Virus record (IMG/VR): IMGVR_UViG_3300046007_011247
Coordinates: 1-29,347 of that record
Strand: one strand, 5' to 3'
Origin: a virus
DNA length: 29,347 nt
The notes under the pieces are model-generated. The model did not search any database. It worked only from the letters and a program-made list of their open reading frames with translations, and was not told the origin of the DNA. A program made the translations under genes and the position numbers. Positions 3,834-19,942 of this stretch are shown piece after piece. Within the stretch, counting starts at the first letter, position 1. Each line of letters starts with the position of its first letter.

Positions 3834-3858
3834 AGGCTTGGTTACCCAAGCCTTTTTT
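3834..3858 (+). terminator. Rho-independent terminator before polymerase part A
   Basis: AGGCTTGG (3834-3841) pairs with CCAAGCCT (3846-3853) across a TTAC loop, followed by a T-run to 3858. Its core GCTTGGTTACCCAAGC differs by one loop base from the terminator before polymerase part B (6757-6785). Confidence 0.85.
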
Positions 3859-3872: not shown

Positions 3873-5621
3873 ATGTATCAATCAATATATTACGATCATC
3901 AAACCTATACTTATTATTTAAGAGATGATAAACAAGGCTGGCTGGACTTCCAACTCCAGCCAACTTTTTGGAAACGTGTTCCTGGGTGGCAAGAAGGTGC
4001 TAGACCAGTTTTAACTGGTGGTTGGGCTATTCCAACTAGAAAATATGATAAAAATGATCCTGACTTATTAGAAAAGGATATTGATAAATCATTATATGCT
4101 TTACGAGAGCTATACTATAAAGAAGATGATGTTGTACCTTCATGGCATAATGTAGTCTATATAGATATTGAGATTGAAATGGGAGGTGCACTTACACCTT
4201 ACTATATTCAACAAGCACCTATGCCTTTAACATCTATTGCTTTAATAGATGTAACTACTAAACAAAAGATATGTCTTATTGTTGATCCATCAGGCCAAAT
4301 TGAAGAAATAAACCAAGATGGTAAACATATTATGCCTTGTAAAAATGAGCGTGAACTAATAGGTAAGTTTTTATCTAAATTTGAAGAATTAGACCCAACA
4401 ATATTAGTTGGTTACAACTCAGATTATTTTGATATGCCTTATCTTTACCATCGCTTAGTACAAGTTGTAGGTGAAGAACAAACATCACGTTTATCTCCAA
4501 TTAGAAAAGTATCACAACGTGAATTTAATGGTGAATCTCAAATTACTATTGGAGGTGTTAATTGTCTAGACTATATGTTACTTCATAAGAAGTACATTAT
4601 GAAAGAAGAACCATCATATAAATTAGGTGATATTGGAACTAAATATGTTGGTTTAGGTAAGATTGAATATGAAGGTAATTTGAACACATTGTTTAAAAAT
4701 GATATTAATTCCTTTATTGACTATAACTTACGAGACGTTGAAATTATTGAAGCGTTAGAAGGTAAATTAAAGTTCATTGACTTAACAATTATGATTTCTC
4801 ATATTTGTAATATCCCATATGAATCAATTTATTGGAATACAGTTATGAATGAAGGAGCTATTCTAAAGCATTTAAAACGTGAAGGCATAGTATCACCAAA
4901 TAAACCAACCACTCATAACCCAGCGTTAAAATCATTTAAAGATACTTATGCTGGTGGTTATTTATTAGAACCAATACCTGGTTTGTACTTTGATGTTATT
5001 GACTTAGACTTTACCTCACTATATCCTTCAATTATCAAATCACTTAATTTAGGTATTGAAACATTAGTTGGTAGAATTAAAGTAGATAATAGACCAACTT
5101 ATGAACAAAACCATAGTTTAGAAAAACTAAAAGAACGTGACCCTAAAGAAGTTATTACTATTGAAAAAGTAAATAAAAAGGATTATACTACAACTCAAAC
5201 TAAAGTTACTATTGGACAATTAATAGGAATTATTGAAGAAAGTAACCTAACAATAGCAGCATCAGGTGCTATGTTTAGAACAGATAAAAGAAGTGTTTGT
5301 AGTACAATTCTTGAAGGATGGTTTAATAAACGAGAACATTATAGAGGTTTAAAAAAGAAAGCAGGTAAAGAAGAAGATTGGACTAATTATAAGTTATATG
5401 ATCTGTTTCAACATGCATTTAAGATCTTACAAAACGCTATGTATGGTACTTACGCCAAATCAGGATGGAGATACACTGATGGTCAATTAATTTGTAGTGC
5501 CGCTATTACTAACAGCGGACAGTCCCTTACACAAAATACAATTCGTTTTACAAATGATAAAATTAATAATGAATATTTACATTTAAGTAAAGATGAATTA
5601 ATTACTAAATTTGGTTTGTAA
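3873..5621 (+). CDS. 43A: Family B DNA polymerase, part A (exonuclease and palm motifs A and B)
   Basis: A 582-residue T4 gp43-like polymerase that stops before motif C. The 3'-5' exonuclease motifs are intact: Exo I 'YIDIE' (D98, E100), Exo II 'YNSDYFD' (D187) and Exo III 'YNLRD' (Y284, D288). Polymerase motif A 'DLDFTSLYPS' (D377, Y384) and motif B 'KILQNAMYG' (K517, N521, Y524, G525) are present. After motif B it continues through 'SGQSLTQNTIRF' and ends at 'ITKFGL'. The second catalytic aspartate pair (motif C), thumb and C-terminus are in the separate gene at 6807-7688. There is no intein signature at the end. Activity must need both products. The two parts total 875 residues, close to T4 gp43 (898). 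Confidence 0.95.
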   Translation: MYQSIYYDHQTYTYYLRDDKQGWLDFQLQPTFWKRVPGWQEGARPVLTGGWAIPTRKYDKNDPDLLEKDIDKSLYALRELYYKEDDVVPSWHNVVYIDIEIEMGGALTPYYIQQAPMPLTSIALIDVTTKQKICLIVDPSGQIEEINQDGKHIMPCKNERELIGKFLSKFEELDPTILVGYNSDYFDMPYLYHRLVQVVGEEQTSRLSPIRKVSQREFNGESQITIGGVNCLDYMLLHKKYIMKEEPSYKLGDIGTKYVGLGKIEYEGNLNTLFKNDINSFIDYNLRDVEIIEALEGKLKFIDLTIMISHICNIPYESIYWNTVMNEGAILKHLKREGIVSPNKPTTHNPALKSFKDTYAGGYLLEPIPGLYFDVIDLDFTSLYPSIIKSLNLGIETLVGRIKVDNRPTYEQNHSLEKLKERDPKEVITIEKVNKKDYTTTQTKVTIGQLIGIIEESNLTIAASGAMFRTDKRSVCSTILEGWFNKREHYRGLKKKAGKEEDWTNYKLYDLFQHAFKILQNAMYGTYAKSGWRYTDGQLICSAAITNSGQSLTQNTIRFTNDKINNEYLHLSKDELITKFGL

Positions 5622-5643
5622 TATTTATTATTAAAATACAATT

Positions 5644-6213
5644 ATGATAAAATTAATAGACTTATTAAATGAAAATATGGATCCTTTAAAACCTCAAAAT
5701 AGTGAGGAAAAATTATTATCTCCTCCTAAAAAAATAAAAGATAATAAAGGAAATATTATAACATTAATAGGTCAAGAATCTAAAAATATATATTGGGACA
5801 CTAATGGAAACAGATGGAACTCAGATGGTGAAAATAATTATGGTAAATTTAAAATGAACAGATATGATTCAATAGAATTTAAAAAACAACCTAAAATAGA
5901 ACCAGAAGTTATAGATAAAGCTTGGGAAAAAGCCTACGATGAACATACAGATTCATTAAAAATATTTGTTAATGATATATTAGAAGTTCCGTATGATGTT
6001 AATTTAGGATGGAGAGATGGTGTTGATGAAAATATTATTTTTATTACATCTAAAATATATGGTGATAATCCAACTACTTTTACTACTTACCATAAAGAAA
6101 TAAATGGAGATCAAATAGACTACAGATATGAATCCTATAAACCAATAAATGTTACTGCAGATGAAATTGAAGATGCTCTAACTAAAAGAAAACTAAAAAA
6201 ATTAGGTTTATAA
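5644..6213 (+). CDS. Unknown protein with a short amphipathic N-terminal peptide, between polymerase halves
   Basis: A 189-residue protein with no recognised domain. The first ten residues 'MIKLIDLLNE' form an amphipathic segment ending in L-N-E. This resembles the N-terminal targeting peptides of T4-like head proteins, which are cut after (L/I)xE by the prohead protease, so packaging into the capsid is a possibility (inference). The rest is charged and soluble, rich in Asp, Lys and Asn, with 'WRDGVDENIIFITSKIYG' near residues 119-136 and a Lys-rich end. It sits 22 bases after polymerase part A and is closed by its own terminator. It is one of three small genes separating the two polymerase genes. 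Confidence 0.6.
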   Translation: MIKLIDLLNENMDPLKPQNSEEKLLSPPKKIKDNKGNIITLIGQESKNIYWDTNGNRWNSDGENNYGKFKMNRYDSIEFKKQPKIEPEVIDKAWEKAYDEHTDSLKIFVNDILEVPYDVNLGWRDGVDENIIFITSKIYGDNPTTFTTYHKEINGDQIDYRYESYKPINVTADEIEDALTKRKLKKLGL

Positions 6214-6216
6214 AAG

Positions 6217-6240
6217 AGCTTGGATAACCAAGCTTCTTTT
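6217..6240 (+). terminator. Rho-independent terminator, exact inverted copy of the one near 6759
   Basis: AGCTTGG (6217-6223) pairs with CCAAGCT (6228-6234) across an ATAA loop, followed by a T-rich tract. The 18-base unit is the exact reverse complement of 6759-6776. Confidence 0.8.
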
Positions 6241-6262
6241 TTATTTTTAATAAAAATAGGTT

Positions 6263-6481
6263 ATGTCAAATAAAGAATATATTAACTTAATGCAAAAACG
6301 TTTAGATTGGTGTGTTCAAACTGAACACTATGAAATGGCTGCTCGTTTAAGAGATTTGATTGTTTATGAAACAACAGATGACGAGCAGTTTAAACATCAA
6401 TACTATTTAGATCTACTTAGAAAATATGCTCCTGAAACTCCTGAGTTTTATGAAAAAATGAAAACAAAATATAATTTATAA
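6263..6481 (+). CDS. Small UVR-motif (UvrB/UvrC-like) protein
   Basis: A 72-residue protein whose first half matches the UVR helix-hairpin motif of UvrB and UvrC: 'LMQKRLDWCVQTEHYEMAAR' continuing 'LRDLI' (about residues 9-33), with the characteristic 'E.YE.AA.LRD'. The second half is a helical Tyr/Lys-rich tail. In UvrB and UvrC this motif mediates their contact. As a stand-alone phage protein it could bind a host Uvr subunit or another partner, which is unproven. It lies between the polymerase halves, after a terminator, with 'AGGTTATG' at the start, so it seems to be its own transcription unit or the first gene of a two-gene unit. Confidence 0.7.
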   Translation: MSNKEYINLMQKRLDWCVQTEHYEMAARLRDLIVYETTDDEQFKHQYYLDLLRKYAPETPEFYEKMKTKYNL

Positions 6482-6490
6482 AAAAAATAC

Positions 6491-6505
6491 ATATTTATAA
6501 TAAAA
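6491..6505 (+). promoter_or_regulatory. Recurring AT box ATATTTATAATAAAA
   Basis: This 15-mer occurs identically at 2310-2324 upstream of the proline-rich gene, and here 11 bases before the ATG at 6517. A related GATATTTATCATAAA lies at 8446-8460. It is a candidate for a second promoter class distinct from the ATTATATTA box, but the evidence is recurrence only. Confidence 0.3.
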
Positions 6506-6516
6506 TACTTAATAAA

Positions 6517-6750
6517 ATGGCAAAACAAATTATATCTGAAGAATTTAAAAAAATGCAAAAATTAGCAGGAATTGTTAATGAAGCAGTTGATACTCCACAA
6601 TGGCCTGATGCTATTCGTAATTTTATTACAACTAATTTATCTAATGATGAGAAAGAATTATATTTAGTAGTTAAAGCATTAGAAAAAACATTAGAATCAT
6701 TTAAAAATGAAATGGGAGAATACGACCCCGATTTTCATTATGATATTTAA
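6517..6750 (+). CDS. Small phage protein with 'MQKLAGIVNE' N-terminal motif
   Basis: A 77-residue protein. The N-terminus 'ISEEFKKMQKLAGIVNE' (residues 6-22) is a short amphipathic helix of a kind I recognise from the N-termini of small proteins in marine T4-like phages. It ends in V-N-E, similar to the (L/I)xE sites of T4-type prohead proteases. The remainder is an acidic helical segment ('DEKELYLVVKALEKTLESF') and an acidic tail. No enzymatic motif is visible. Together with the 5644 gene it suggests that capsid-targeted proteins have been inserted into the polymerase locus. That reading is inference. A strong terminator follows 6 bases after the stop. Confidence 0.6.
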   Translation: MAKQIISEEFKKMQKLAGIVNEAVDTPQWPDAIRNFITTNLSNDEKELYLVVKALEKTLESFKNEMGEYDPDFHYDI

Positions 6751-6756
6751 TTAACA

Positions 6757-6785
6757 AAAGCTTGGTTATCCAAGCTTTCTTTTTT
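6757..6785 (+). terminator. Rho-independent terminator before polymerase part B
   Basis: AAAGCTTGG (6757-6765) pairs perfectly with CCAAGCTTT (6770-6778) over 9 bp with a TTAT loop, followed by a T-rich tract. It separates polymerase part B from the upstream genes, so part B likely has its own promoter in 6786-6806. Confidence 0.85.
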
Positions 6786-6806
6786 ATATTTACCTAAATA
6801 AAAGTT

Positions 6807-7688
6807 ATGCAAAACATCATCATAAGTGATACAGATAGTTTATATATAGGTTTAAACCCTATACTAGAACATATGCGTTCTCAAGGTATAGATATCAATG
6901 ACTCAAATAAAAATGATATCATATTAAAGATAGCTACTCAAATTCAAGACGAAGCAAATAATAATCTTAACACAATGTGTAAAGATCTATTTAACATTGA
7001 CCCATCCAAACATTACTTCCAGTTAAAACAAGAAGTAATTGCTACTGGTATTTTAGTTACTGGTAAGAGAAGATACGCTATGTATGTTACTAATAAGGAA
7101 GGTGTCGCTGTTGAAGAGCTAGATATGAAAGGTCTAGAGTTGATGAAGTCTAATATGAATAAACGATTCAAAGGATTTGGTGAACAATTTATTAAAGACA
7201 TTTTATTTGGTAAACCAAAATCTGAATTAGATGCTTCAATTATTAACTTCTATAAATTAATTAAAACATTAGATCCTAAAGAATTAGGCAAACCAACAGG
7301 AGTAAAACAAATCAACTCATATAAAGTACCAGCCCGAGCAGGTGAGATGTTTAGTTCATTTAAATTAAAAGCACCAGCCAATACTAAAGCAGCAGTTCGA
7401 TATAATGACTTACTTAAATTTAAGAGATTAGATAAACAATATGAATCAATTATTGAAGGTGATAAAATCTTTATTATTAACTTAAAAGCCAATCCTTATA
7501 AATTAGAAACAGTTGGATTACCAAACGCTAAAGTTCCTGATGAAATAGAAAAATTTGTTAAAGATTATATTGATATAGATGAAATTTTCGAATCACTATT
7601 ACTAAACAAATTAAAGGAACTTTATAGTGATTTAAAATGGGAGTTCCCACCTTTGAATGCAAATGTTACAAAATTCTTTGCTTTCTAA
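6807..7688 (+). CDS. 43B: Family B DNA polymerase, part B (motif C, thumb, C-terminal tail)
   Basis: A 293-residue protein that begins seven residues before polymerase motif C: 'MQNIIISDTDSLYI', catalytic D8 and D10. It continues through the conserved 'GKRRYAMYV' (about 86-94, primer-template contact), 'MKGLELMKS' and the thumb, as in the C-terminal third of T4 gp43. It ends 'NVTKFFAF', comparable to the clamp-binding tail 'SLFDMFDF' of T4 gp43, and the clamp gene follows directly. Polymerase part A ends after motif B, so the palm must be assembled from two chains. The start is fixed by the terminator upstream and by 'AAAAGTTATG', the same leader as part A. No intein C-terminal signature is seen. 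Confidence 0.94.
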   Translation: MQNIIISDTDSLYIGLNPILEHMRSQGIDINDSNKNDIILKIATQIQDEANNNLNTMCKDLFNIDPSKHYFQLKQEVIATGILVTGKRRYAMYVTNKEGVAVEELDMKGLELMKSNMNKRFKGFGEQFIKDILFGKPKSELDASIINFYKLIKTLDPKELGKPTGVKQINSYKVPARAGEMFSSFKLKAPANTKAAVRYNDLLKFKRLDKQYESIIEGDKIFIINLKANPYKLETVGLPNAKVPDEIEKFVKDYIDIDEIFESLLLNKLKELYSDLKWEFPPLNANVTKFFAF

Positions 7689-7694
7689 AAAATA

Positions 7695-7706
7695 TTTATT
7701 ATATTA
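7695..7706 (+). promoter_or_regulatory. Promoter-like box TTTATTATATTA before the sliding clamp gene
   Basis: It shares 12 of 13 bases with the boxes before folE and polymerase part A and ends 5 bases before the ATG at 7712. This supports 7712, not an upstream in-frame ATG at 7637, as the clamp start. Confidence 0.45.
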
Positions 7707-7711
7707 CAAAT

Positions 7712-8437
7712 ATGATATCAAAAATAGAATTACAATCGGTTATTGAAAAATACCATTTAAATGGTTTAATTGAGAGTGTTAAATGGTCAATTGATGATAA
7801 AAAACAATTAACTATTAACTTTACATCTCCTACTCGTGAAATGATAGGAACGCTAATCCATACTGACTTCCCATTACCAAAATCAGAGGTAGGTATTAAT
7901 GACACAACACAATTAGATAAGTTATTATCTATCACTAGTGGAGATTTAATGTTGAATTTCTCTAAAGAAAAAAACATACTCACTAAATTATTAATCTCTG
8001 ACAACCAGTATAATCTAGACTATACACTAGCAGATTTATTTATCATACCTAAATCAGGTACATATAATGGTCCTGAAGAATATGATATTGAAACAACATT
8101 AACTGATGAGGTAGTGACAGCATTAATTAAAGCTAAAAACGCATTATCAAATAGTGAAAATGTTGTTATAAAACCGGGTTTACTTGGTTTAGAATTTACT
8201 TTTGGAGGAGATGTCGAACATGCAAATAAAGTTACTTATGCTGTTCAAAATCTAGAAATTAACACTGGGAATACATTTACTTTAATCTATAACTCATCTT
8301 TATTAAAAGAAATATTAGTAGCTAATAGAGATATGGAAAGTGGTAGAATTCATATTAATTCAAATGGTTTAATGAAACTTACATTTGATCACAAAACATT
8401 CACAAGTCTTTACTATATTGTTGCGAAAGAACAATAA
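7712..8437 (+). CDS. 45: Sliding clamp, DNA polymerase accessory protein (gp45-like)
   Basis: A 241-residue protein with the size and order of a T4 gp45-type clamp. The N-terminal domain has 'LTINFTSPTREMIGTLIHTDF' spread over residues 34-54. A middle segment 'SGDLMLNFSKEKNILTKLLISDNQYNLDYTLAD' lies at about residues 79-111. The second domain ends 'LKLTF..KTFTSLYYIVAKEQ'-like, as phage clamps do. Sequence identity to T4 is low, and the call leans on position between polymerase part B and the clamp-loader genes. The clamp trimer encircles DNA and tethers the polymerase. In T4 gp45 also activates late transcription. The frame is open upstream to 7637, but that start lies inside the polymerase gene and the promoter-like box points to 7712. 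Confidence 0.82.
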   Translation: MISKIELQSVIEKYHLNGLIESVKWSIDDKKQLTINFTSPTREMIGTLIHTDFPLPKSEVGINDTTQLDKLLSITSGDLMLNFSKEKNILTKLLISDNQYNLDYTLADLFIIPKSGTYNGPEEYDIETTLTDEVVTALIKAKNALSNSENVVIKPGLLGLEFTFGGDVEHANKVTYAVQNLEINTGNTFTLIYNSSLLKEILVANRDMESGRIHINSNGLMKLTFDHKTFTSLYYIVAKEQ

Positions 8438-8455
8438 TCTGTGATATTTATCATA

Positions 8456-8491
8456 AACAATTTGGCTTTTTAGTAAAAAATTGTTATATTA
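8456..8491 (+). promoter_or_regulatory. Sigma-70-like promoter with embedded inverted repeat, upstream of the groES-groEL unit
   Basis: TTGGCT (8462-8467) and TATATT (8485-8490) are separated by exactly 17 bases, the classical -35/-10 layout. An 8-bp inverted repeat, AACAATTT (8456-8463) and AAATTGTT (8478-8485), overlaps both elements and could be an operator. The predicted transcript start is near 8497, 15 bases before the next ATG. Confidence 0.5.
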
Positions 8492-8511
8492 AGTTATAAA
8501 TTAAATAAGTT

Positions 8512-8829
8512 ATGAGTGAAAATCAATTACCGTCTTCAATGACGATGATCAAAGATCCATCTATCGAACCGTATTTTATCGGTAGAGACGCAAACAGTTA
8601 CACAGTCTATGAAACTGTTTACCCAGGTACAAACACTAAGGGAAGAGGTCGTAAAACACGATCTAAAGAAGCAATCAAAACACTTTCATTCCATTCTACT
8701 TTAGGATCAGCATTAGGTTCTATTGCTAAATTAAAAGTTGAAAAACGCCCTGTTTATAATACTATTAAAGAGTATATTACAGAATGGACTAGAGTTAAAG
8801 AAGAAATCAATCAAATAGTTAATTTTTAA
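8512..8829 (+). CDS. Conserved-looking phage protein of unknown function
   Basis: A 105-residue protein without a recognised domain. It has a beta-rich first half ('DPSIEPYFIGRDANSYTVYE'), a basic linker 'GRGRKTRSK' at about residues 43-51, then helices with 'GSALGSIAKLKV' and 'YNTIKEYITEWTRV'. The layout recalls small proteins in other T4-like aquatic phages, but I cannot name a function. It is the first gene after a good sigma-70-like promoter and ends one base before groES, so it is probably co-transcribed with the chaperonin genes. Confidence 0.6.
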   Translation: MSENQLPSSMTMIKDPSIEPYFIGRDANSYTVYETVYPGTNTKGRGRKTRSKEAIKTLSFHSTLGSALGSIAKLKVEKRPVYNTIKEYITEWTRVKEEINQIVNF

Positions 8830-8830
8830 T

Positions 8831-9130
8831 ATGAAACAGTTACAAGCAACGTTTAACGCAGTTATTGTGAAGCCTCGAGAAGAGGAAGAATCAATGTATG
8901 GTGGAATCATTGTACCTGATTTGGGTAAGGAGAAAGCGCTTATTGGTACTATCGTATCTGTAGGCCCTGGCCAGCACTCATATTCAGGAGAGTTTATTCC
9001 CACTATGTTACAAGTAGGTCAAGAAGTTATGCTACCCGCTTTGGGACCTAATAAAGTCGAATTAGAAGGACAAGAATATTGGGTATGCCCAGAAAATCAA
9101 GTGTTAGCAATTATAACAGAACAAGAGTAA
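8831..9130 (+). CDS. groES: Co-chaperonin GroES
   Basis: A 99-residue Cpn10 of normal length. The beta-barrel opening 'ATFNAVIVKP' is followed by the mobile loop region 'EEESMYGGIIVPDLGKEKA' (about 18-36), whose hydrophobic 'GGIIV' is the part that docks on GroEL. Then come 'GTIVSVGPG' and a C-terminal 'VLAIITEQE'. It forms a heptameric lid over the GroEL chamber. T4 instead encodes the divergent gp31, whereas this one is a plain GroES. The next gene, 4 bases on, is groEL, giving the host-like groES-groEL order. Confidence 0.95.
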   Translation: MKQLQATFNAVIVKPREEEESMYGGIIVPDLGKEKALIGTIVSVGPGQHSYSGEFIPTMLQVGQEVMLPALGPNKVELEGQEYWVCPENQVLAIITEQE

Positions 9131-9134
9131 AATT

Positions 9135-10751
9135 ATGAGTAAGATTATTGAATTCGGACCCGAAGCAAGAAAAAAACTCGTAACAGGTATTGATAAATTA
9201 GCTAATGCCGTTACGTCAACATTAGGACCAAATGGTCGAAATGTTGTTATAGCAAATCAAAATGGTTACCCACAATCAACAAAAGATGGTGTAACTGTAG
9301 CCAAAAACATTTCACTTGAAGATCCAATTGAAGAATTAGGTGTACAACTTGTAAAACAAGCAGCTATTAAGACAGCTGAGGGAGCAGGTGATGGTACAAC
9401 CACATCTACATTATTGGCTCAAGAAATGGTTAAAGCTGGTTTAACCCACTTAAACAATGGAGTAAACGCAGTAACTATCAAACGTGATATTGATGCCGCA
9501 GTTAAGGATGTAGTTGCGGAATTACGTAGAGGTATATCACAAGATATCAGCTCTGAAGACCAATTAAAACAAGTCGCTACTATCTCTGGTAATAATGATC
9601 CTGAAGTAGGAGAATTAATCGCAACCGCAATGAATAAAGTAGGTCGTGAAGGTGTAGTTTACATTGAAGAATCTAAATCAGGTGAAACATATCTTGAAAC
9701 AGTTGAAGGTATGCAATTTGATCGTGGTTACAAATCACATTATTTTGTAACTGACAATAACACAATGAGTTGTACACTTGAAAATGCTTATATCTTAATT
9801 GCTGATAAGCGTTTTTCATCTGTAAAAGAATTATTACCAATCTTAGAAAATGTAGGTAGTCAAGGTAAATCATTACTTATCATTGCAGAAGACATTGATG
9901 GTGAAGCATTAGCAACACTTATTGTTAATAAAATGAGAGGTACACTTAAAGTAGCAGCAGTTAAAGCTCCTGATTTTGGTGATCGTAGAAAACTTATTTT
10001 AGATGATATTGCAATTTTAACAGGAGGTGAGGTATTTAGTTCCGATAAGGGTATGAAACTAGATCGTTTTGATCCAAAATGGTTTGGTCAAGCCCGATTA
10101 GTTACAATTACAAAAGATGAAACAACAATCGTTGATGGACGAGGAGAATCTGAACGAATACAAGCACGTATTGAAGAGTTACAGCTCCAAATCGAAAAAG
10201 CAAAAACACCTTTCGAACAAGAAAAACTACAAGAAAGACTCGCGAAATTTGTCGGAGGAGTAGCTATTGTTCATGTAGGTGGAAATACTGAAACTGAGGT
10301 CAAAGAAAAGAAAGACCGAGTTGATGATGCACTTCAAGCAACTAAAGCCGCAATTGAAGAAGGTATTGTTCCTGGAGGTGGTGCTGCTTTATTATATGCT
10401 CGTGAAGCAATCAAGAATCGCAAATCAGTAGGTGGCCAAATTGTTTACACAGCATGTGGTGCACCATTTATGAAAATTCTTACTAACGCTGGTTCTACAG
10501 AACAAGAGGCTTATTATTTAATTAATAAGTTAGGTGGTAATGATAACTGGAAAGGATATAATTTAGTGACTGAAAAATTCGTTAACATGAAGGATGCAGG
10601 TATTATTGATCCAACTAAAGTTACTCGTACCGCAATTGAGAACGCGGCATCAGTAGCTGGAACAATTCTATTAACAGAATGTACTGTCGTAGATAAACCT
10701 GAAGATAAAAAACAGGATGATATGATGGGCGGAATGGGAGGTATGTTCTAA
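9135..10751 (+). CDS. groEL: Chaperonin GroEL
   Basis: A 538-residue group I chaperonin, essentially full length. Equatorial ATP-site motifs are intact: 'TLGPNGRNV' (29-37), 'GDGTTT' (85-90) and the catalytic D398 in 'DRVDDALQATKAA'. The 'GIVPGGGAALL' block and the flexible tail 'MMGGMGGMF' are present. The apical segment is continuous, so GroES binding is expected. It should therefore be an active ATPase rather than a remnant. It contains more CGN arginine codons than AGA, unlike the glycan genes downstream. Capture from a bacterial host is likely on general grounds. It overlaps the following gene by one base (TAATG). Confidence 0.97.
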   Translation: MSKIIEFGPEARKKLVTGIDKLANAVTSTLGPNGRNVVIANQNGYPQSTKDGVTVAKNISLEDPIEELGVQLVKQAAIKTAEGAGDGTTTSTLLAQEMVKAGLTHLNNGVNAVTIKRDIDAAVKDVVAELRRGISQDISSEDQLKQVATISGNNDPEVGELIATAMNKVGREGVVYIEESKSGETYLETVEGMQFDRGYKSHYFVTDNNTMSCTLENAYILIADKRFSSVKELLPILENVGSQGKSLLIIAEDIDGEALATLIVNKMRGTLKVAAVKAPDFGDRRKLILDDIAILTGGEVFSSDKGMKLDRFDPKWFGQARLVTITKDETTIVDGRGESERIQARIEELQLQIEKAKTPFEQEKLQERLAKFVGGVAIVHVGGNTETEVKEKKDRVDDALQATKAAIEEGIVPGGGAALLYAREAIKNRKSVGGQIVYTACGAPFMKILTNAGSTEQEAYYLINKLGGNDNWKGYNLVTEKFVNMKDAGIIDPTKVTRTAIENAASVAGTILLTECTVVDKPEDKKQDDMMGGMGGMF

Positions 10752-11008
10752 TGGCTACTGAGGTCAAAGAAGAATTAGTACTAATCGCTAAGCGCGTCCC
10801 ACCTTCAGATAGGTGGGCGTTGCTAAGCGATCCTAATCATGTGTACCCTTCATTAACTGAGGCATTAGAAGGTTACTTTCAAGAAACTCAACAACCATGT
10901 GACTTCAGATTATCACCTATAAAAGGTGAATTGTATGCTATTGTATCAATTGTAGCAGAAATAAAACCAATTCCTCCAAAGAAGTTTAACATGTATGGTG
11001 ATTATTAA
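10751..11008 (+). CDS. Small protein of unknown function coupled to groEL
   Basis: An 85-residue protein I do not recognise. It starts on the last base of the groEL stop codon (TAATG), so translation is probably coupled. Features are 'LVLIAKRVPPSDRWALLSDP' (residues 10-29), 'SLTEALEGYF', a mixed beta segment 'DFRLSPIKGELYAIVSIVAE' and a basic end. There is no membrane segment. Its 5' part encodes a long RNA hairpin (10784-10831) that is GC-rich against the surrounding sequence. A terminator with a TTCG loop ends the unit. The gene could be a chaperonin accessory or simply a neighbour. Confidence 0.6.
   Translation: MATEVKEELVLIAKRVPPSDRWALLSDPNHVYPSLTEALEGYFQETQQPCDFRLSPIKGELYAIVSIVAEIKPIPPKKFNMYGDY
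10784..10831 (+). other. Long imperfect hairpin inside a coding sequence
   Basis: Arms 10784-10803 and 10812-10831 are 20 bases each with an 8-base loop TTCAGATA. Sixteen of 20 positions pair: the inner CCCACC/GGTGGG, an outer ATCGCT/AGCGAT and an inner AGCG, interrupted by one A-A mismatch and a 3-base internal loop. It is unusually GC-rich for this genome. Confidence 0.6.
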
Positions 11009-11017
11009 AATAAAATT

Positions 11018-11037
11018 TGGCCTTCGGGCCATTTTTT
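11018..11037 (+). terminator. Rho-independent terminator with TTCG tetraloop
   Basis: TGGCC (11018-11022) pairs with GGCCA (11027-11031) around a C(TTCG)G tetraloop, followed by six Ts. It ends the chaperonin unit. Confidence 0.9.
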
Positions 11038-11053
11038 ATTATCTTTATATTAT

Positions 11054-11974
11054 ATGAAGGAAAATAGTTTATTTGTAGAAAAATATCGCTCTAAAACATT
11101 AGATGAATATGTTGGTAATGAGCAACTAAAACAAATTGTTGAAAAATATATCAACAGCAATGATTTACAAAATTTATTATTGTATGGTACACCAGGAACA
11201 GGTAAAACTACATTAGCTAAATTAATTGTAAATAATTTTAATTGTGATTATCTTTACATAAACACAAGTGATGAAAGGGGGATCGATACTATTAGAGATA
11301 AAGTTCAAGGTTTCGCATCTAGTGCTTCATTCAAACCTATCAAAATCATTATTTTAGATGAAGCAGATTTTTTAACTATTCAAGCCCAAGCATCGCTTAG
11401 GAATATTATTGAAACTTATTCTCGTACCACACGTTTTATTTTAACATGTAATTACCTTGAACGAATTATCGATCCCCTTCAATCACGTTGTCAAGTATTA
11501 AAGATTACACCTCCATCTAAAAAAGAAGTAGCACAACATGTATCTACTATTTTAGATCAAGAGAATGTTAACTATGAATTAGAGGATCTAGCATTAGTAG
11601 TTAATAAACATTATCCTGACATTAGAAAAATATTAAACACTTGTCAAGTGAATAATGTTGAAGGTACTCTTAAAATAGATAAAACAGTACTAGCATCAAA
11701 CAGTTACAAAGATGGAGTATTAAAAGAACTTAAATCACCATCTAAATCTAGTTTTAAAAACATTAGACAAATACTTGCTGATAGTAATTTGGATGATTTT
11801 GAAGAGATTTATAGATTCCTATATGATAATTTAGATGAATATGGTAATAATGATCTAGTAAAAGCAATGATTGTTATTGAAATAGAAAGTTATATGTACC
11901 ATGCTAACTTTAGAATTGACAAAGAAATTAACACAATGGCATTAATATGCGCAATATTAAAAATCATCCAGTAA
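11054..11974 (+). CDS. 44: Clamp loader large subunit, AAA+ ATPase (gp44-like)
   Basis: A 306-residue AAA+ clamp loader subunit, similar in size to T4 gp44 (319). It begins with the family's 'FVEKYRSKTLDEYVGNE'. Walker A 'GTPGTGKT' spans 45-52, Walker B 'IIILDEAD' 98-105, sensor 1 'TCNY' 131-134, and the SRC arginine-finger motif is 'LQSRCQ' at 142-147. The C-terminal collar domain follows. With gp62 it opens the sliding clamp and loads it at primer-template junctions in an ATP-driven step. The ATG lies directly after 'TTTATATTA' and the terminator of the previous unit. Its end overlaps the next gene by 28 bases. Confidence 0.93.
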   Translation: MKENSLFVEKYRSKTLDEYVGNEQLKQIVEKYINSNDLQNLLLYGTPGTGKTTLAKLIVNNFNCDYLYINTSDERGIDTIRDKVQGFASSASFKPIKIIILDEADFLTIQAQASLRNIIETYSRTTRFILTCNYLERIIDPLQSRCQVLKITPPSKKEVAQHVSTILDQENVNYELEDLALVVNKHYPDIRKILNTCQVNNVEGTLKIDKTVLASNSYKDGVLKELKSPSKSSFKNIRQILADSNLDDFEEIYRFLYDNLDEYGNNDLVKAMIVIEIESYMYHANFRIDKEINTMALICAILKIIQ

Positions 11975-12168
11975 TTCACTTCACAACATACTTGTTATTA
12001 TGGATATCAAGTAACTTATCAGTACCATTTTGGATGATAGGACATGTTCATTTAACAATGAATGTATATGAAGATATAATTGAAATATTATCATCATTTG
12101 GGATGAATATTTTAGTAGCTATTGGATTTTATATAGATTGGAAAAATTATAAAAAACAAATAAAATGA
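11947..12168 (+). CDS. Small membrane protein between the clamp loader genes
   Basis: A 73-residue protein with two hydrophobic segments, about residues 12-32 ('FTTYLLLWISSNLSVPFWMI') and 46-64 ('EILSSFGMNILVAIGFYI'), and a basic C-terminal tail 'NYKKQIK' that would favour a cytoplasmic end. It overlaps the clamp loader gene by 28 bases and the next gene by four (ATGA). No family is recognised. A holin-like or membrane-anchoring role can be imagined, but nothing in the sequence decides it. An internal ATG (codon 30) is a less likely start because it would cut the first membrane segment. Confidence 0.6.
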   Translation: MRNIKNHPVIHFTTYLLLWISSNLSVPFWMIGHVHLTMNVYEDIIEILSSFGMNILVAIGFYIDWKNYKKQIK

Positions 12169-12419
12169 GCAATCAACAACAAAATCTCAACATTAAAGTT
12201 GATCCAAGTCAAACAACACCTATTGTTTCTCCTGAAGGAAAACAAGTATTCACTGAGGGTGTTTTGTTACGTAAGGTGTCTAAATTTTTAGCTGGTACAG
12301 CAGAGGATGCAATTATGCCTGTTCCTTGTTTCTATGATCCTACTTCAGGTAAGATCTTAATTGAAATGTTACCAACTGAATTTAGAGAAGAATATCAGAA
12401 GTACAATGACTCTCTTTGA
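12165..12419 (+). CDS. Unknown 84-residue phage protein
   Basis: The sequence 'NIKVDPSQTTPIVSPEGKQV' (about 9-28), 'VLLRKVSKFLAGTAEDAIMP' (33-52) and 'VPCFYDPTSGKILIEMLP' (53-70) follows a pattern I associate with small phage proteins that in relatives carry a zinc-ribbon of cysteine pairs. Here only one cysteine remains, so metal binding is unlikely. This family link is from memory and weak. The ATGA overlap with the membrane protein gene and a 14-base overlap with the gp62-like gene place it in the clamp-loader chain. Confidence 0.6.
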   Translation: MSNQQQNLNIKVDPSQTTPIVSPEGKQVFTEGVLLRKVSKFLAGTAEDAIMPVPCFYDPTSGKILIEMLPTEFREEYQKYNDSL

Positions 12420-12822
12420 TTGGCTTAACCAGATCACTTATGAGAAAAAATCTTGGAATTCATTTACTGAGGAAGAGAAAGAATCATTTAACTGTTATAT
12501 GGTTCATCGATTCCTTAGTATGAATCCTGAGTACATTGAGTTTGTAAATTTAGTTCAGACTTTTCCATATACTGATAAGGAAAAAACATATAATATATAT
12601 TTATATATGATACCCAAAAACAAAATGTTCCTTAAATATATTAAGTCCTCTAAATCAAAACCTAAAGAAGCTCTATTAAAATATATTGCTTCTTATTATG
12701 AATGTTCGCTTGGCGAAGCAGAAGAGTATACTTATATTTTAAGAGAAACAGGTGTTAAATCTATTCTCACTAAATTAGGTGTTGAAGAAAAAGAACAAAA
12801 AAAGTTATTAAAAAATGGATAG
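12406..12822 (+). CDS. 62: Clamp loader small subunit (gp62-like)
   Basis: A 138-residue all-helical protein. 'TLFDWLNQITYEKKSW' at the start, 'NCYMVHRFLS' and 'IYLYMIPKNKMFLKYIK' match the pattern of gp62 in T4-like aquatic phages ('PFDYLNAIN.tKK', 'PFMVNR.LS', 'r.Kkrf.kW.K'). It is shorter than T4 gp62 (187). gp62 forms the A subunit of the clamp loader with four gp44 copies. The frame extends upstream to a TTG at 12361, but the ATG at 12406 aligns with the family start and overlaps the previous gene by only 14 bases. Two genes separate it from gp44, which in T4 is adjacent. Confidence 0.75.
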   Translation: MTLFDWLNQITYEKKSWNSFTEEEKESFNCYMVHRFLSMNPEYIEFVNLVQTFPYTDKEKTYNIYLYMIPKNKMFLKYIKSSKSKPKEALLKYIASYYECSLGEAEEYTYILRETGVKSILTKLGVEEKEQKKLLKNG

Positions 12823-13012
12823 TATAGTTTTGTCAATAATCAAACAGTTCGAAGATCGAAGTGTTAAAGGAAAAGAAAAATATGGTACTGATTTAGATAG
12901 AACTGATCTGTCTTTATTAGATTGGATTGAACATGCTAAACAAGAGCATATGGATGCTATCTTGTATTTAGAAAAATTAAAACAGCAGTTCATTCAAGAA
13001 ACCACAAAGTGA
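12815..13012 (+). CDS. Short helical protein, MazG/DUF5664-like
   Basis: A 65-residue, mostly helical protein. 'FEDRSVKGKEKYGTDLDR' (12-29) followed by 'LLDWIEHAKQEHMDAILYLEKL' (about 34-55) has the 'KYGT...W..H...E..DA..YL' pattern of small phage proteins related to the N-terminal part of dATP/dGTP diphosphohydrolases or MazG-like helices. Only one acidic metal-binding set (E44, D47) is obvious, so activity is uncertain. It overlaps the gp62-like gene by 8 bases and the nuclease gene by 4. Confidence 0.6.
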   Translation: MDSIVLSIIKQFEDRSVKGKEKYGTDLDRTDLSLLDWIEHAKQEHMDAILYLEKLKQQFIQETTK

Positions 13013-13944
13013 GTAAGAAAACACCATTCGTAGTAAGGGCTATTAAAAATCATACCCCACAAGATATTAACTATTCTTTCCAGAAAACAATATCTTATAG
13101 TCAATTTTCTACTTATAATGACTGTCCTTTAAAATGGAAGTTACAATATAAGGATGGTCTTCAAGAGTATACACCTACAATTCATACTGTATTTGGAACA
13201 GCAATGCATGAAGTAATTCAACATTATTTAACTATAATGTATGAAGAAAGTGGAGCAGCTGCTGATAGGATAGATATAGAGCAAGAATTTGAAAATAAAT
13301 TTAGAGAAGTATACCTAGAAGAATATAAACGAAATAAAAATATTCATTTTAGTTCATCTCCAGAAATGAGAGAGTTTTATGATGATGGATTAGCTATTTT
13401 AAATTTTCTAAAAAGAAAACGAGGCCAATACTTCAGTATTAAAGGATGGCATTTAGTAGGTTGTGAAATACCTATTGTGATTAATCCAAATGAGAGATTT
13501 AAAAATTTGTTATATAAAGGTTATCTTGACTTAGTTTTATATAATGAAAACACAGATAAACACAAAATCATTGATTTTAAAACATCTACTCGGGGTTGGA
13601 ATAATGATGCTAAAAAAGATGAAGGTAAGCAGTTTCAACTAATGTTTTACAAAAATTATTATAGTAAACAATTTAAAGTACCTGAAGAAAACATTGATAT
13701 TGAGTTTGTTATTCTAAAGAGAAAAATATGGGAAGAAAGTGATTTTCCACAAAGTCGAATCCAAGAATTTGCTCCTCCAAGTGGTAAAATTAAAATGAAA
13801 AAAGCAATTACTACTTTAGATAATTTTCTTGAACAATGTTTTAATACTGATGGAACATTTAAAGATACTGACCATCAACCAGTAGTAAATAAGAACTGCC
13901 AGTATTGCCCATTCTATAATAGAAAAGATTTATGCTCAGTGTAA
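13009..13944 (+). CDS. PD-(D/E)XK nuclease with Fe-S cluster (RecB/Cas4-like)
   Basis: A 311-residue nuclease of the RecB/AddB/Cas4 type. Active-site residues are H67 in 'GTAMHEVI', D174 in 'YKGYLDLVL', D189 and K191 in 'IIDFKTS', and Q208 in the 'QFQLMFY' motif IV. Four cysteines, C39 ('NDCPLKW') and C297, C300 and C309 ('NCQYCP...LC'), match the 4Fe-4S ligands that pin the two ends of this fold. It probably acts as a 5'-3' or recombination exonuclease on viral DNA, which is inferred from the family. The start is a GTG that overlaps the previous stop codon (GTGA). It closes the replication gene chain. Confidence 0.85.
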   Translation: MSKKTPFVVRAIKNHTPQDINYSFQKTISYSQFSTYNDCPLKWKLQYKDGLQEYTPTIHTVFGTAMHEVIQHYLTIMYEESGAAADRIDIEQEFENKFREVYLEEYKRNKNIHFSSSPEMREFYDDGLAILNFLKRKRGQYFSIKGWHLVGCEIPIVINPNERFKNLLYKGYLDLVLYNENTDKHKIIDFKTSTRGWNNDAKKDEGKQFQLMFYKNYYSKQFKVPEENIDIEFVILKRKIWEESDFPQSRIQEFAPPSGKIKMKKAITTLDNFLEQCFNTDGTFKDTDHQPVVNKNCQYCPFYNRKDLCSV

Positions 13945-13960
13945 TCTATATATCTTTATA

Positions 13961-13968
13961 TATTTTTG
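13961..13968 (+). promoter_or_regulatory. Possible Bacteroidota-type -7 element TATTTTTG
   Basis: The sequence fits the TAnnTTTG -7 consensus known from Bacteroidota, 15 bases before the GIY-YIG ATG, in a very AT-rich 39-base spacer. No convincing -33 TTG element is visible. AT-rich sequence makes a chance match likely. Confidence 0.25.
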
Positions 13969-13983
13969 TATATTTATATATAA

Positions 13984-14421
13984 ATGGATATGAGAATACC
14001 TAATACATATGTTTACGAGTTAATAAAAGATAATGAAGTATTCTACATTGGAAAAACTATAAACCCTGAAGGAAGATTATTAGATCATTATCAAAAATAT
14101 GGTACTAGTATAATAATGAAAATAATTAATATATTCACTGATCCTGAACATGAAATTATTCTTGAGTATAAAGCAAAAGGAATTAATTTAAAAAATAAAG
14201 AATTTTATGTTGATAAAGATAAAACATATTCTGTAGGGGATATTATTGAATATAAGAAAAAACAAAACTCAAACCGAATATGGGATAATAAAACTCAAAC
14301 TGAGTTCCCAAGCGTATATGCTTTTGCTAAACATTTTAACTACTCAGATTATTTAGTTTCCGCCCATTTAAAAGGAAAAAATACAAAAATAAGTAAATTT
14401 TTAGATATTAAAAGCATATGA
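13984..14421 (+). CDS. GIY-YIG endonuclease, probable free-standing homing endonuclease
   Basis: A 145-residue protein. The N-terminal GIY-YIG domain is read from 'YVYELIKDNEVFYIGKT' (9-25) with the conserved R31 and H35 in 'PEGRLLDHY'. The C-terminal part 'DNKTQTEFPSVYAFAKHF' (about 101-118), 'LVSAHLKGK' resembles the NUMOD/IENR DNA-binding repeats of homing endonucleases. No intron is evident around it, so it would be a free-standing (Seg-like) enzyme. It overlaps the next gene by four bases (ATGA). A fixed Glu typical of the catalytic site may be E70 or E75, which I cannot decide by eye. Confidence 0.82.
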   Translation: MDMRIPNTYVYELIKDNEVFYIGKTINPEGRLLDHYQKYGTSIIMKIINIFTDPEHEIILEYKAKGINLKNKEFYVDKDKTYSVGDIIEYKKKQNSNRIWDNKTQTEFPSVYAFAKHFNYSDYLVSAHLKGKNTKISKFLDIKSI

Positions 14422-14606
14422 GTAAAACAAACATGACACTAACAAGTGTTAAAGTACAGAGCGAGTTATTTGAAGATTTTAAAATGAGTTGTGTTAAACA
14501 TAAGTTTTCTTTACAGAAGCTTGTAGATCGTACAATCCATTTATATCTTACAGATGATGAGTTTAGAAAGTCAATTCACAATCACAATAATTTAGAAAGA
14601 AAATAA
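14418..14606 (+). CDS. Ribbon-helix-helix DNA-binding protein
   Basis: A 62-residue protein fitting the Arc/MetJ ribbon-helix-helix plan: a short beta strand 'TSVKVQSELF' (9-18), helix 'EDFKMSCVKHKF' and helix 'LQKLVDRTIHLYLTDDEF' (32-49). Such dimers bind operators and often regulate nearby genes. It is translationally coupled to the GIY-YIG gene and immediately precedes the glycan locus, so it could control either. No operator pair was identified. Confidence 0.72.
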   Translation: MSKTNMTLTSVKVQSELFEDFKMSCVKHKFSLQKLVDRTIHLYLTDDEFRKSIHNHNNLERK

Positions 14607-14611
14607 GTTTT

Positions 14612-16045
14612 ATGAATTCAAGTTTTGCTTACCTTCCTCAAAATGAGAGGAAGAAAATTTTGCTAATCTGCGATGATATTAGAGTTCATTCAGGTGTAGC
14701 AACAGTTGCTCGAGAAATGGTATTAAATACAGCTCAGCATTTTAATTGGGTCAATGTAGGTGGAGCAATTAATCACCCAGAACAAGGTAAACGTTTAGAT
14801 TTAAGCGCTGATACTAATAGTAATACTGGGTTAACTGATAGCTCAGTTATATTATACCCAACTAACGGATATGGAGATGCTGGTTTAATTAGACAACTAA
14901 TAACAATAGAAAAACCAGATGCTATTTTCTTAATCACAGACCCAAGATATTTTATTTGGTTATTTCAGATTGAAAATGAAATTAGAAAGAAAACACCTAT
15001 TATATACTTAAACATTTGGGATGACTACCCAGCACCAATGTATAATAAAGCTTATTATGAATCATGTGATGCTTTATTAGCTATTTCAAAACAAACTAAA
15101 AATATTAATGAGTTAGTATTAGGTGATAAAACAAAAGGTAAAATTATTGAGTATGTACCTCATGGTTTAAACCATGATGTTTTTAAACCACTTGATAAGA
15201 ATGATAAAGAGTTAGTTGAGTTTAAGAAAAATTTATTTAAAGGAAAAGAATATGATTTTGTTATGTTCTTTAACTCTAGAAACATTCGTCGGAAACAAAT
15301 TCCTGATACAATGTTAGCATTTAGATTATTTCTAGATAAATTAACACCTGAACAAGCTAAAAAATGTGCTTTTGTACTACATACTCAAGTAGTTGATGAA
15401 AATGGTACTGATTTAGAAGCTGTAAGAGAATTATTATTAAATGAAGATCATCATAATGTTATTTTTTCTAATCAAGTGTTAGACCCTAAAGGAATGAATA
15501 TGTTATATAATTGTTCTGATGTTCAAATTTTATTAACTAACAATGAAGGATGGGGGTTAAGTTTAACTGAAGCTATTTTAGCAGGTAATCCAATTATTGC
15601 TAATGTAACAGGTGGAATGCAAGATCAAATGCGGTTTAGTAAAAAAGGTAAATGGATTAATTTTAGCGCTGATTTTCCTTCTAACCATAATGGAACAATT
15701 AAAGAACATGGTGAATGGGCATTCCCAGTATATCCAACTAATAGATCAATTCAAGGTTCTCCATTAACACCTTACATTTGGGATGATAGATGTAATGCTG
15801 AAGATGCAGCTAAACAAATAATGAATGTTTATGAACTATCTAGAGAAGAAAGACAATCACGAGGATTAAAAGGACGTGAATGGGCTTTATCAGATGAAGC
15901 AGGCCTTACAGGTGAAAAAATGGGTCAAAAAATAATTAGTATTTTAGACACATTATTTAAAACTTGGAAACCAAGAGAAAAATATGAATTTATAAACACA
16001 GATGAAGTTAAAGACAAAGTAGTACCTCACAAATTAGTATATTAA
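14612..16045 (+). CDS. GT4-type glycosyltransferase (GT-B fold)
   Basis: A 477-residue retaining-type glycosyltransferase. The N-terminal Rossmann half starts 'ILLICDDIRVHSGVATVAREM' (16-36). The C-terminal half has 'FFNSRNIRRKQIP' and the E-x7-E motif E312...E320 in 'NNEGWGLSLTEAILAGNPI'. GT4 enzymes move a sugar from a nucleotide-sugar donor. Donor and acceptor are not predictable here. Arginine codons are mixed CGN and AGA, as in the replication genes, so this gene looks long-resident in the phage. A similar GT4 gene follows 6 bases later. Confidence 0.87.
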   Translation: MNSSFAYLPQNERKKILLICDDIRVHSGVATVAREMVLNTAQHFNWVNVGGAINHPEQGKRLDLSADTNSNTGLTDSSVILYPTNGYGDAGLIRQLITIEKPDAIFLITDPRYFIWLFQIENEIRKKTPIIYLNIWDDYPAPMYNKAYYESCDALLAISKQTKNINELVLGDKTKGKIIEYVPHGLNHDVFKPLDKNDKELVEFKKNLFKGKEYDFVMFFNSRNIRRKQIPDTMLAFRLFLDKLTPEQAKKCAFVLHTQVVDENGTDLEAVRELLLNEDHHNVIFSNQVLDPKGMNMLYNCSDVQILLTNNEGWGLSLTEAILAGNPIIANVTGGMQDQMRFSKKGKWINFSADFPSNHNGTIKEHGEWAFPVYPTNRSIQGSPLTPYIWDDRCNAEDAAKQIMNVYELSREERQSRGLKGREWALSDEAGLTGEKMGQKIISILDTLFKTWKPREKYEFINTDEVKDKVVPHKLVY

Positions 16046-16051
16046 AAAGTT

Positions 16052-17359
16052 ATGAGTAAACCGTTATTTTTTATATCCTGCCCTATTGATACTTATAGTG
16101 GTTATGGAGCACGCTCTCGAGATTTAGTTAGAGCAATCATTCAATTAGATAAATATGATGTTAGAATCTTACCACAAATGTGGGGTAATACACCTTGGGG
16201 ATTCATTAATGATAATCCTGAATGGGAATTTTTAAACAGACATATTCATACTCAACCTCAATTACCTAAGCAGCCTGAGATTTGGATGCAAATCACTATC
16301 CCAAGTGAGTTTCAACCAATTGGAAAGTACAATATTGGAGTAACAGCAGGAATTGAAACTACAGTATCACCTGGAGATTGGATTGAAGGATGTAATAGAA
16401 TGAATTTAGTATTAACTTCTTCTGAGCATTCTAAAAATACATTTGTTAAGACAGTAATGCAAAAGGTAGATCAACGTACTAATCAAATTATAGGTGAGTT
16501 AAAAATTGAAAAACCAATTGAAGTATTATTTGAAGGAGCTGATATAGAAATCTATAAGCCACTTGATAAAGTATCTTTATTCCCTGAATTAGATGAAATT
16601 AAAGAAAAATTTGCGTTTTTATTTGTTGGTCATTGGATTAATGGAGATTTAAGTGAAGATAGAAAAAATGTTGGTTTATTAATTAAAATGTTTTTTGAAG
16701 TATTCAAGAACAAAAAAGACAAACCAGCGCTTATCTTAAAAACATCTCAAATGGGTTCATCATATATTGATCGAGATGAAATTTTAAAGAAAATTAAATT
16801 GATTAAAAAATCAATTAATAGTAAAGATTTACCAAATATTTATTTAATTCATGGTGAATTTACAGATGTTGAGATGAATGAGTTATATAACCATCCTAAA
16901 ATAAAAACGATGGTTAATTTAACTAAAGGTGAAGGATTTGGTAGACCATTACTTGAATTTAGTTTAACTAAAAAACCAATTATAACAACAGGTTGGAGTG
17001 GCCATATAGATTTCCTAAACCCAGAGTTTACAACATTATTACCAGGTCACTTAACAAATGTCCATCCAAGTGCTGCTAATAATTGGTTATTAAAAGAATC
17101 ACAATGGTTCTCAGTAGATTTAGGTCATGCCGCTACCACTATTAAAGATATATTTGAAGATTATAAAAAATATATTGATGGTGCTAAACGTCAAGCACAT
17201 AAGAGTAAAACTGAGTTTAGTTGGGATAAAATGAAGGATAAAGTAGATGAATTATTTACTAAATATATTCCTGAGTTTCCTAAAGAAGTTAAATTACAAT
17301 TACCTAAATTAAAGAAAATTGAATTACCTAAATTACAAAAAGTAGAAGATAATGGATAA
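16052..17359 (+). CDS. GT4-type glycosyltransferase
   Basis: A 435-residue GT-B glycosyltransferase. The N-terminus 'GYGARSRDLVRAI' (18-30) resembles a glycine-rich donor/acceptor loop. E-x7-E is E294...E302 in 'KGEGFGRPLLEFSLTKKPI'. The last 23 residues carry a degenerate Lys/Leu/Pro repeat ('LQLPKLKKIELPKLQK') that looks like a flexible basic tail. It sits directly after another GT4 gene and overlaps the next gene by 8 bases, so the three are probably translated from one message. Substrates are unknown. Confidence 0.85.
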   Translation: MSKPLFFISCPIDTYSGYGARSRDLVRAIIQLDKYDVRILPQMWGNTPWGFINDNPEWEFLNRHIHTQPQLPKQPEIWMQITIPSEFQPIGKYNIGVTAGIETTVSPGDWIEGCNRMNLVLTSSEHSKNTFVKTVMQKVDQRTNQIIGELKIEKPIEVLFEGADIEIYKPLDKVSLFPELDEIKEKFAFLFVGHWINGDLSEDRKNVGLLIKMFFEVFKNKKDKPALILKTSQMGSSYIDRDEILKKIKLIKKSINSKDLPNIYLIHGEFTDVEMNELYNHPKIKTMVNLTKGEGFGRPLLEFSLTKKPIITTGWSGHIDFLNPEFTTLLPGHLTNVHPSAANNWLLKESQWFSVDLGHAATTIKDIFEDYKKYIDGAKRQAHKSKTEFSWDKMKDKVDELFTKYIPEFPKEVKLQLPKLKKIELPKLQKVEDNG

Positions 17360-17810
17360 AATTATAAATTGCCCTAAATCAGGAGGTGATTTGTGTTATG
17401 AAACACAAGTTACACCTGAGATAACCAACTGGATGTCTTTATCATGTGGATATTGGACTAACAGCTTAATGACAGAAGGAAGTGAATTCTATACTCAACA
17501 AATGGAAATGTTACCTGAATTATATAAAGCATTGGCTTGGGAGGATAAGAGTACAGGTTTAATATGGTTACCACAAACTATCAATGAACCTAAACAAGGT
17601 ATGATATTTGCTAATGGGAATGAAGCCTCAAATTGGAAATGGGCAGCTGTTAAAGCAGTCCCAGTAACTGAAGAAGAAAAACATAAATACCCAATCCCAA
17701 AACAACCAGGTAAGTTTTATGAATATAGAATGGATATGACTACTCTTCAACATTTTGATGAAAGAGACTTTATAGATGCTTTAAGTTATATTGGCTTACT
17801 ACCAGAATAA
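17352..17810 (+). CDS. Unknown protein in the glycosyltransferase operon
   Basis: A 152-residue protein with no identified domain. It starts 'CPKSGGDLCYETQV' (7-20) and 'WMSLSCGYWTNSLM' (27-40), giving three conserved-looking cysteines, possibly a zinc site. Later it has 'GLIWLPQTINEP' and 'WKWAAVKAVPVTEEEKHKYP', and ends in an acidic helix. I associate the cysteine/Trp N-terminus with uncharacterised proteins of aquatic phages. Overlap with the preceding GT4 gene suggests a shared task, but the function is not known. Confidence 0.6.
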   Translation: MDKIINCPKSGGDLCYETQVTPEITNWMSLSCGYWTNSLMTEGSEFYTQQMEMLPELYKALAWEDKSTGLIWLPQTINEPKQGMIFANGNEASNWKWAAVKAVPVTEEEKHKYPIPKQPGKFYEYRMDMTTLQHFDERDFIDALSYIGLLPE

Positions 17811-17811
17811 T

Positions 17812-17820
17812 ATTATATTA
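17812..17820 (+). promoter_or_regulatory. Promoter-like box ATTATATTA before the GT2 gene
   Basis: It has the same 9-base core as the boxes before folE, polymerase part A and the clamp gene, and ends 8 bases before the ATG at 17829. It is the only such box seen in the glycan region and may start the long downstream operon. Confidence 0.4.
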
Positions 17821-17828
17821 ATGGTTAT

Positions 17829-18446: not shown

Positions 18447-18447
18447 G

Positions 18448-18954: not shown

Positions 18955-18956
18955 TT

Positions 18957-19937: not shown

Positions 19938-19942
19938 ATTTT

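Follow-up and report, generated by a model that had tools for sequence, protein, structure and literature searches.

Family B DNA polymerases that are divided between two genes are known from T4-like phages and from archaea. The nearest parallels to the gene reported here are in Aeromonas phages 44RR2.8t and 25, where gp43A and gp43B are reported to co-purify with polymerase activity (Petrov et al. 2010, as cited in PMC2988022). Here we describe a T4 gp43-type polymerase gene that is split between palm motifs B and C. It lies in IMG/VR record IMGVR_UViG_3300046007_011247 (positions 1-29,347, a 29 kb fragment of metagenomic origin, hereafter the window). Its N-terminal half (43A, 3873-5621) carries the catalytic aspartate of motif A and its C-terminal half (43B, 6807-7688) carries that of motif C. 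We think it likely that this locus records the insertion of a free-standing homing endonuclease into a T4-like gp43, leaving a two-chain enzyme and, in the window, a slot that holds only cargo genes.

As in 44RR2.8t and 25, a T4-type polymerase is in two parts and its catalytic aspartates are on two chains; in phage 25 a homing endonuclease also lies between the halves. However, the break in these phages falls in the fingers between motifs A and B, with 43B holding motifs B and C. Acinetobacter phages ZZ1 (PMC4177764) and vB_AbaSI_3 are similar to the window in that small unrelated genes, six in number, separate the halves and no endonuclease is annotated. Nevertheless, ZZ1 is also broken at the fingers site, which leaves motif A on its own chain, apart from motifs B and C. 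Since the window break falls after motif B, we rejected membership of the 44RR2.8t/25/ZZ1 class. In Serratia phage PS2 the polymerase is broken after about 308 residues, ahead of motif A. The Methanobacteriales also encode one family B polymerase in two genes (Kelman et al. 1999, as cited in PMC4104785), and the parts compared here carry no intein. Unlike in the window, the large part in Methanobrevibacter ends past motif C (IYADTDGFYAKYKKEK) and both aspartates are on one chain, while the two PolB genes are on different contigs (four genomes). Membership of this class was rejected because the break there comes after motif C.

Polymerase genes are also naturally broken at split inteins, for example in PolB16 OarG (PMC10189870), Aes123 PolB1 (PMC11923092) and Nanoarchaeum equitans (PMC4104785). 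In PolB16 OarG this occurs at motif C (GDTD/S). Those halves are trans-spliced, whereas the window has no detected intein and is broken seven residues upstream of motif C. A further likeness is to nrdA of Aeromonas phage Aeh1, split by MobE, and gene 60 of T4, split by MobA (PMC2988022), where an essential gene split by a free-standing homing endonuclease yields two working polypeptides. Here the host gene is a different one, and the window copy would have lost its endonuclease and holds cargo instead. Polymerase splits are also found in the gut Jug phages (PMC12363816), in whose genomes group I introns abound; none was found at the window locus. Relative to the characterised precedents compared, with the Jug phage splits set aside, the break position is new. 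Aspartates on two chains (44RR2.8t/25, ZZ1) and halves parted by several unrelated genes were already known. With the window, the known natural splits of family B polymerases gain a break that sets motif C apart from the other two palm motifs.

A polymerase gene broken just ahead of motif C

In 43A (582 residues) the exonuclease domain is followed by palm motifs A and B, and 43B (293 residues) comprises motif C, the rest of the palm and the thumb. These halves, their motifs and the features located between them are all on the plus strand. Motif A (DFTSLYPS, residues 379-386 of 43A, 5007-5030) contains the first catalytic aspartate, and nearly all of its residues are invariant in an alignment of relatives. 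In motif B (KILQNAMYG, residues 517-525 of 43A, 5421-5447), K517, N521, Y524 and G525 are invariant in that alignment. Motif C (DTDS, residues 8-11 of 43B, 6828-6839) contains the second catalytic aspartate and is invariant across all aligned relatives. The exonuclease domain and motifs A, B and C therefore follow one another across the two halves in the order of a T4 gp43-type enzyme.

The two halves also match consecutive parts of RB69/T4 gp43, one part each. 43A matches Pfam DNA_pol_B (2e-23), DNA_pol_B_exo1 (3e-16) and phrog_262 (1e-99). The last match stops at profile position 574, and 43B matches the same profile from position 573 (1e-40). In the frame of RB69 gp43 (PDB), 43A covers approximately residues 186-609 and 43B begins at 617, so that the break is just ahead of the motif C strand. 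When AlphaFold2 models of the separate chains were searched with Foldseek, RB69 gp43 was the top match for both. These models, whose underlying alignments were without phage-collection rows, are moderate in quality (mean predicted local distance difference test (pLDDT) score of 62 for 43A and 75 for 43B). The palm of 43A is of low confidence in its model, and the 43A structure was left out of the interface evidence.

The halves are separated by 1185 bases (5622-6806) that hold three small open reading frames (ORFs; 5644-6213, 6263-6481 and 6517-6750) and two terminator-like stem-loops (6216-6235 and 6757-6778). This architecture had been read from the sequence in a first-pass annotation, which described the content of both halves, the opening of 43B seven residues ahead of DTDS, the aspartates on separate proteins, the three genes and two terminators, and the lack of an intron or intein signature. 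Our ORF, Pfam and phrog_262 matches, stem-loop scan, and Rfam and domain searches bear this description out, as the literature does its statement that split polymerases occur in T4-like phages and archaea.

The break is not confined to one contig. An independent contig, IMGVR_UViG_3300046009_011680 (L074), differs from window positions 4664-15685 by 10 mismatches in an 11,022 bp alignment (99.91% identity) that spans the whole insert. A search of virome contigs for intact and split homologues, as the annotation had proposed, found the same break between motifs B and C in about 22 contigs. It is present in the window's clade (L006, L010, L011, L016, L017, L022, L036, L053, L069 and L098), in a second clade at about 45-60% identity (L238, L239, L241, L242, L243, L248 and L270) and in a third at about 50% identity (L274, L275 and L276). 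More than 50 relatives have an uninterrupted polymerase gene, and these include the closest ones, L002 and L003.

A mobile junction with endonucleases at the same site

To follow the split, we used trees of 71 polymerases, of which 16 are split, based on quick searches; the junction region has few columns, yet the contrast it gives is large. In the trees of the two flanking regions (43A residues 335-530 and 43B residues 90-293) the split label changes 15 times each, against a mean of about 14.6 when the 16 split rows are shuffled. Thus, the split label does not track the polymerase phylogeny. In the tree of the junction (43A 545-566 with 43B 2-60) there are two changes, one per clade, and none of 500 shuffles was that low. 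Along the gene, the number of changes is 15 for 43A 500-545, 6 for 43A 530-566, 2 for both 43B 2-60 and 43B 30-80, 12 for 43B 60-130 and 14 for 43B 130-210.

At the nucleotide level, the start of the window 43A is about 99% identical to the intact gene of L003. Compared with the intact gene of L002, identity is 98-99% at nucleotides 1126-1500 of 43A, close upstream of the junction, 97-99% close downstream of it and 95-99% from nucleotide 361 of 43B onwards, and nucleotides 361-540 of 43B are 99% identical to the best intact relative. At the junction, the best intact gene is only 78% identical (43A 1576-1725) and 62% identical (43B 1-120), whereas the other split genes are 84% and 83% identical to the window over the same segments. 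The window gene has near-intact flanks on both sides of a foreign junction. On the A-side the foreign tract covers approximately 5448-5621 and ends in a split-specific tail (5571-5618); here identity drops from 98% to 78% and the label changes from 15 to 6. On the B-side, identity and label changes place it at approximately 6807-7046, the first 80 or so codons of 43B. Such a pattern would be expected if homing had converted the flanks, or if homologous recombination had taken place on either side of the insert. Judged by this pattern, the split moves with co-converted flanks in the manner of mobE and nrdA, and its junction is a mobile allele.

Inserts at the break are 0.6-4.2 kb long and unrelated in content between contigs. 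A GIY-YIG endonuclease (phrog_314, homing endonuclease) is present at the break in L010 and L053, and in L011 the GIY-YIG gene is broken by an in-frame stop, an instance of endonuclease decay. The inserts of L239, L242 and L243 combine a GIY-YIG endonuclease with cargo. Those of L006, L238 and L248 contain an HNH endonuclease that also gives endonuclease VII-like profile matches, and that of L022 contains a phrog_559-type endonuclease. Tail-fibre-like genes are found in the 4.2 kb insert of L036, and small cargo genes alone fill the break in L016, L017, L069, L098 and the window. In L010, L006, L238 and L248 the 3' end of the endonuclease gene overlaps the start of 43B. Endonuclease genes of GIY-YIG, HNH and phrog_559 type are therefore found in relatives at this very break, as in the mobE/nrdA case. 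When 2.9 million viral contigs were searched, all 14 loci recovered (11 GIY-YIG and 3 HNH) were inside a PolB gene split between motifs B and C; the search used exact short patterns from alignments, which more distant relatives elsewhere could escape. These loci are spread over three polymerase clades that are only about 50% identical to one another. The series from intact gene, through endonuclease only, decayed endonuclease, and endonuclease with cargo, to cargo only provides a readable history in which a selfish insertion can turn into a permanent gene break.

Elsewhere in the window, a small GIY-YIG protein of 145 residues (13984-14421) is weakly similar to the break-site endonuclease of the relatives. 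We considered it as the missing endonuclease, and at 35% identity over 68 residues with the L010 enzyme it was not supported as a direct counterpart.

We suggest that a free-standing homing endonuclease gene inserted directly ahead of the motif C codons. This insertion would have given 43A a new short helical tail and 43B a start codon. Gene conversion driven by the endonuclease, together with recombination, would then have carried the split junction into other polymerase genes. The window copy would have lost the endonuclease, and three cargo genes with their own terminators would have taken the slot. 43A and 43B would assemble non-covalently into one replicative polymerase, to which 43A brings the aspartate of motif A and 43B that of motif C.

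Probable two-chain assembly and alternative explanations

The pooled ratio of nonsynonymous to synonymous polymorphism (pN/pS) of the split genes is 0.22 for 43A 335-549, 0.25 for 43A 550-582 and 0.22 for the tail alone (567-582); for 43B it is 0.22 (residues 2-80) and 0.21 (residues 81-293). Intact genes have values of 0.22 and 0.20 over 43A 335-549 and 43B 81-293, respectively. Both halves are under purifying selection, and this includes the new tail. The tail, with the consensus NEYLxLSKEELIKKFNL, is in place of the intact linker; an extra helix is predicted by the model at residues 573-580, and it may act at a new interface. Split contigs of 155, 128 and 99 kb have no PF00136 (family B polymerase) gene other than the split one. 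Because the halves complement each other, purifying selection acts on both and no other family B gene is found in these three contigs, assembly from two chains, as put forward in the first-pass annotation, is very probable from the sequences, and the 43A-43B pair would be expected to have polymerase activity. The annotation also raised the possibility of an intact polymerase elsewhere in the genome: the three large split relatives (99-155 kb) have none, though the window itself covers only a 29 kb fragment.

Several points weigh against the insertion of a homing endonuclease as the origin of the split. ORF and profile searches of the window insert found three cargo ORFs and no endonuclease gene, and an endonuclease is absent from six split contigs of its clade, the window included. 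The third clade has different 43A tails, which implies either several insertions or a remodelled tail. Cleavage of the intact gene at motif C by the endonuclease is a postulated step. For the two-chain enzyme, the structural models are solely of separate chains, and that of 43A is weak (mean pLDDT 62).

The six members of the window's clade that have no endonuclease also speak for the alternative that fares best, namely that the split predates the endonucleases. Here, cargo or regulatory DNA would have broken the gene first, and homing endonucleases would have settled in the gap later. Such a history has been considered for gene 43 of Aeromonas phages 25 and 44RR, for which the order of events could not be settled (PMC2988022). 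We consider this order of events unlikely, since the two endonuclease families were found only at this site (14 of 14 loci), endonuclease 3' ends supply the start of 43B in several contigs, and the junction travels with a conversion-like tract.

It is very improbable that the halves are rejoined into one chain by an intron or a split intein. Split inteins do exist at PolB motif C, as in PolB16 OarG with its N-extein SGDTD (PMC10189870), and an intein-like domain is found at motif C in the jumbo phage LR756508. However, no RNA family of Rfam, introns included, reached the gathering threshold in the window or across ten split loci, and a domain search of both halves detected no intein on 43A or 43B. 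In addition, 43B is polymerase sequence from its first residues (MQNIIISDTDS), the inserts are unrelated in sequence, and the new 43A tail, which is missing from intact relatives, is itself conserved. The polymerase of LR756508.1 (L146), a 484 kb phage, is encoded at 10001-13054 and 16060-17925 and is also broken between motifs B and C. It has a Hint-like domain near motif B in the A half and the intein-like domain in the B half. Between the halves are four genes, three with short leader-like N-termini and one for a cytidine deaminase.

We give just as little credence to the halves being decaying remnants of a dead gene while another polymerase is active. Though the 29 kb window leaves room for a second gene in the same genome, pN/pS is as low as in intact genes, all motifs are kept, and no second PF00136 gene is found in split contigs of up to 155 kb. 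An assembly artefact joining two genomes, which the annotation had also flagged and which the metagenomic origin might suggest, was rejected as having a negligible chance, since the near-identical contig L074 crosses the junction and about 20 contigs repeat the break with other inserts.

Building on the homing endonuclease origin that we favour, the gap between motifs B and C might be a lasting mobile slot in an essential active site. The junction would spread alone after endonuclease loss, the cargo would be exchangeable, and the two-chain form with its new interface helix would work as well as the one-chain form. We offer this broader proposal tentatively, as possible but short of likely. 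Since near-identical intact and split genes coexist (window flanks 95-99%), matched pairs allow the cost, assembly and repair of a split active site to be put to the test.

Cargo genes and other features of the window

Cargo ORF 1 (5644-6213, 189 residues) has no known family in profile searches and begins with MIKLIDLLNE. Cargo ORF 2 (6263-6481, 72 residues) has a weak UvrB/C-motif match; in L047 and L098, its UVR-motif homologues lie downstream of the polymerase at a distance of about 4-5.5 kb. In cargo ORF 3 (6517-6750, 77 residues), the first 23 or so residues also head unrelated proteins, several of them encoded immediately behind the stop codon of an intact polymerase gene. Within the insert of L098 (752-1783), the polymerase 3' end (FPSLNPNIKKFFAF) is present as a copy and the 43A tail is duplicated in tandem; these duplications are vestiges of recombination with the region downstream. 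From the positions of the ORF 2 and ORF 3 homologues and the L098 copies, the cargo probably entered by recombination from the polymerase neighbourhood.

The terminator-like stem-loops of the insert are GAGCTTGGATAACCAAGCTT (6216-6235) and AAAGCTTGGTTATCCAAGCTTT (6757-6778), the latter upstream of 43B; seven such stem-loops are found in the region, against 1.2 expected (both strands). Near-identical copies of the form GCTTGG..CCAAGC at 3834-3853, 6216-6235 and 6757-6778 close three adjoining units, and these repeats could provide the homology through which modules are exchanged.

Short N-terminal peptides (MAKQIISEEFKKMQKLAGIVNEA, MKKSxLRQIIKEEI.. and MDNFDLKKYL..) head unrelated proteins and resemble the capsid-targeting sequences of T4. 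They are located at 5644-5673 and 6517-6585 of the window and in the inserts of L069, L016, L098, L006 and L239. By analogy, these peptides, including MIKLIDLLNE of cargo ORF 1, may be T4-like capsid-targeting leaders, and the proteins that carry them are possibly packaged into the head.

Downstream of the polymerase, the window encodes GroES and GroEL (8831-10751). The GroEL shares 60% identity with its counterpart in Flavobacterium phage immuto, and a Bacteroidota host is plausible. Further on, about 14 kb (14612-28697) holds glycosyltransferase-, methyltransferase-, aminotransferase- and epimerase-like genes, as judged from their translations, and looks like a sugar synthesis cluster carried by the phage.

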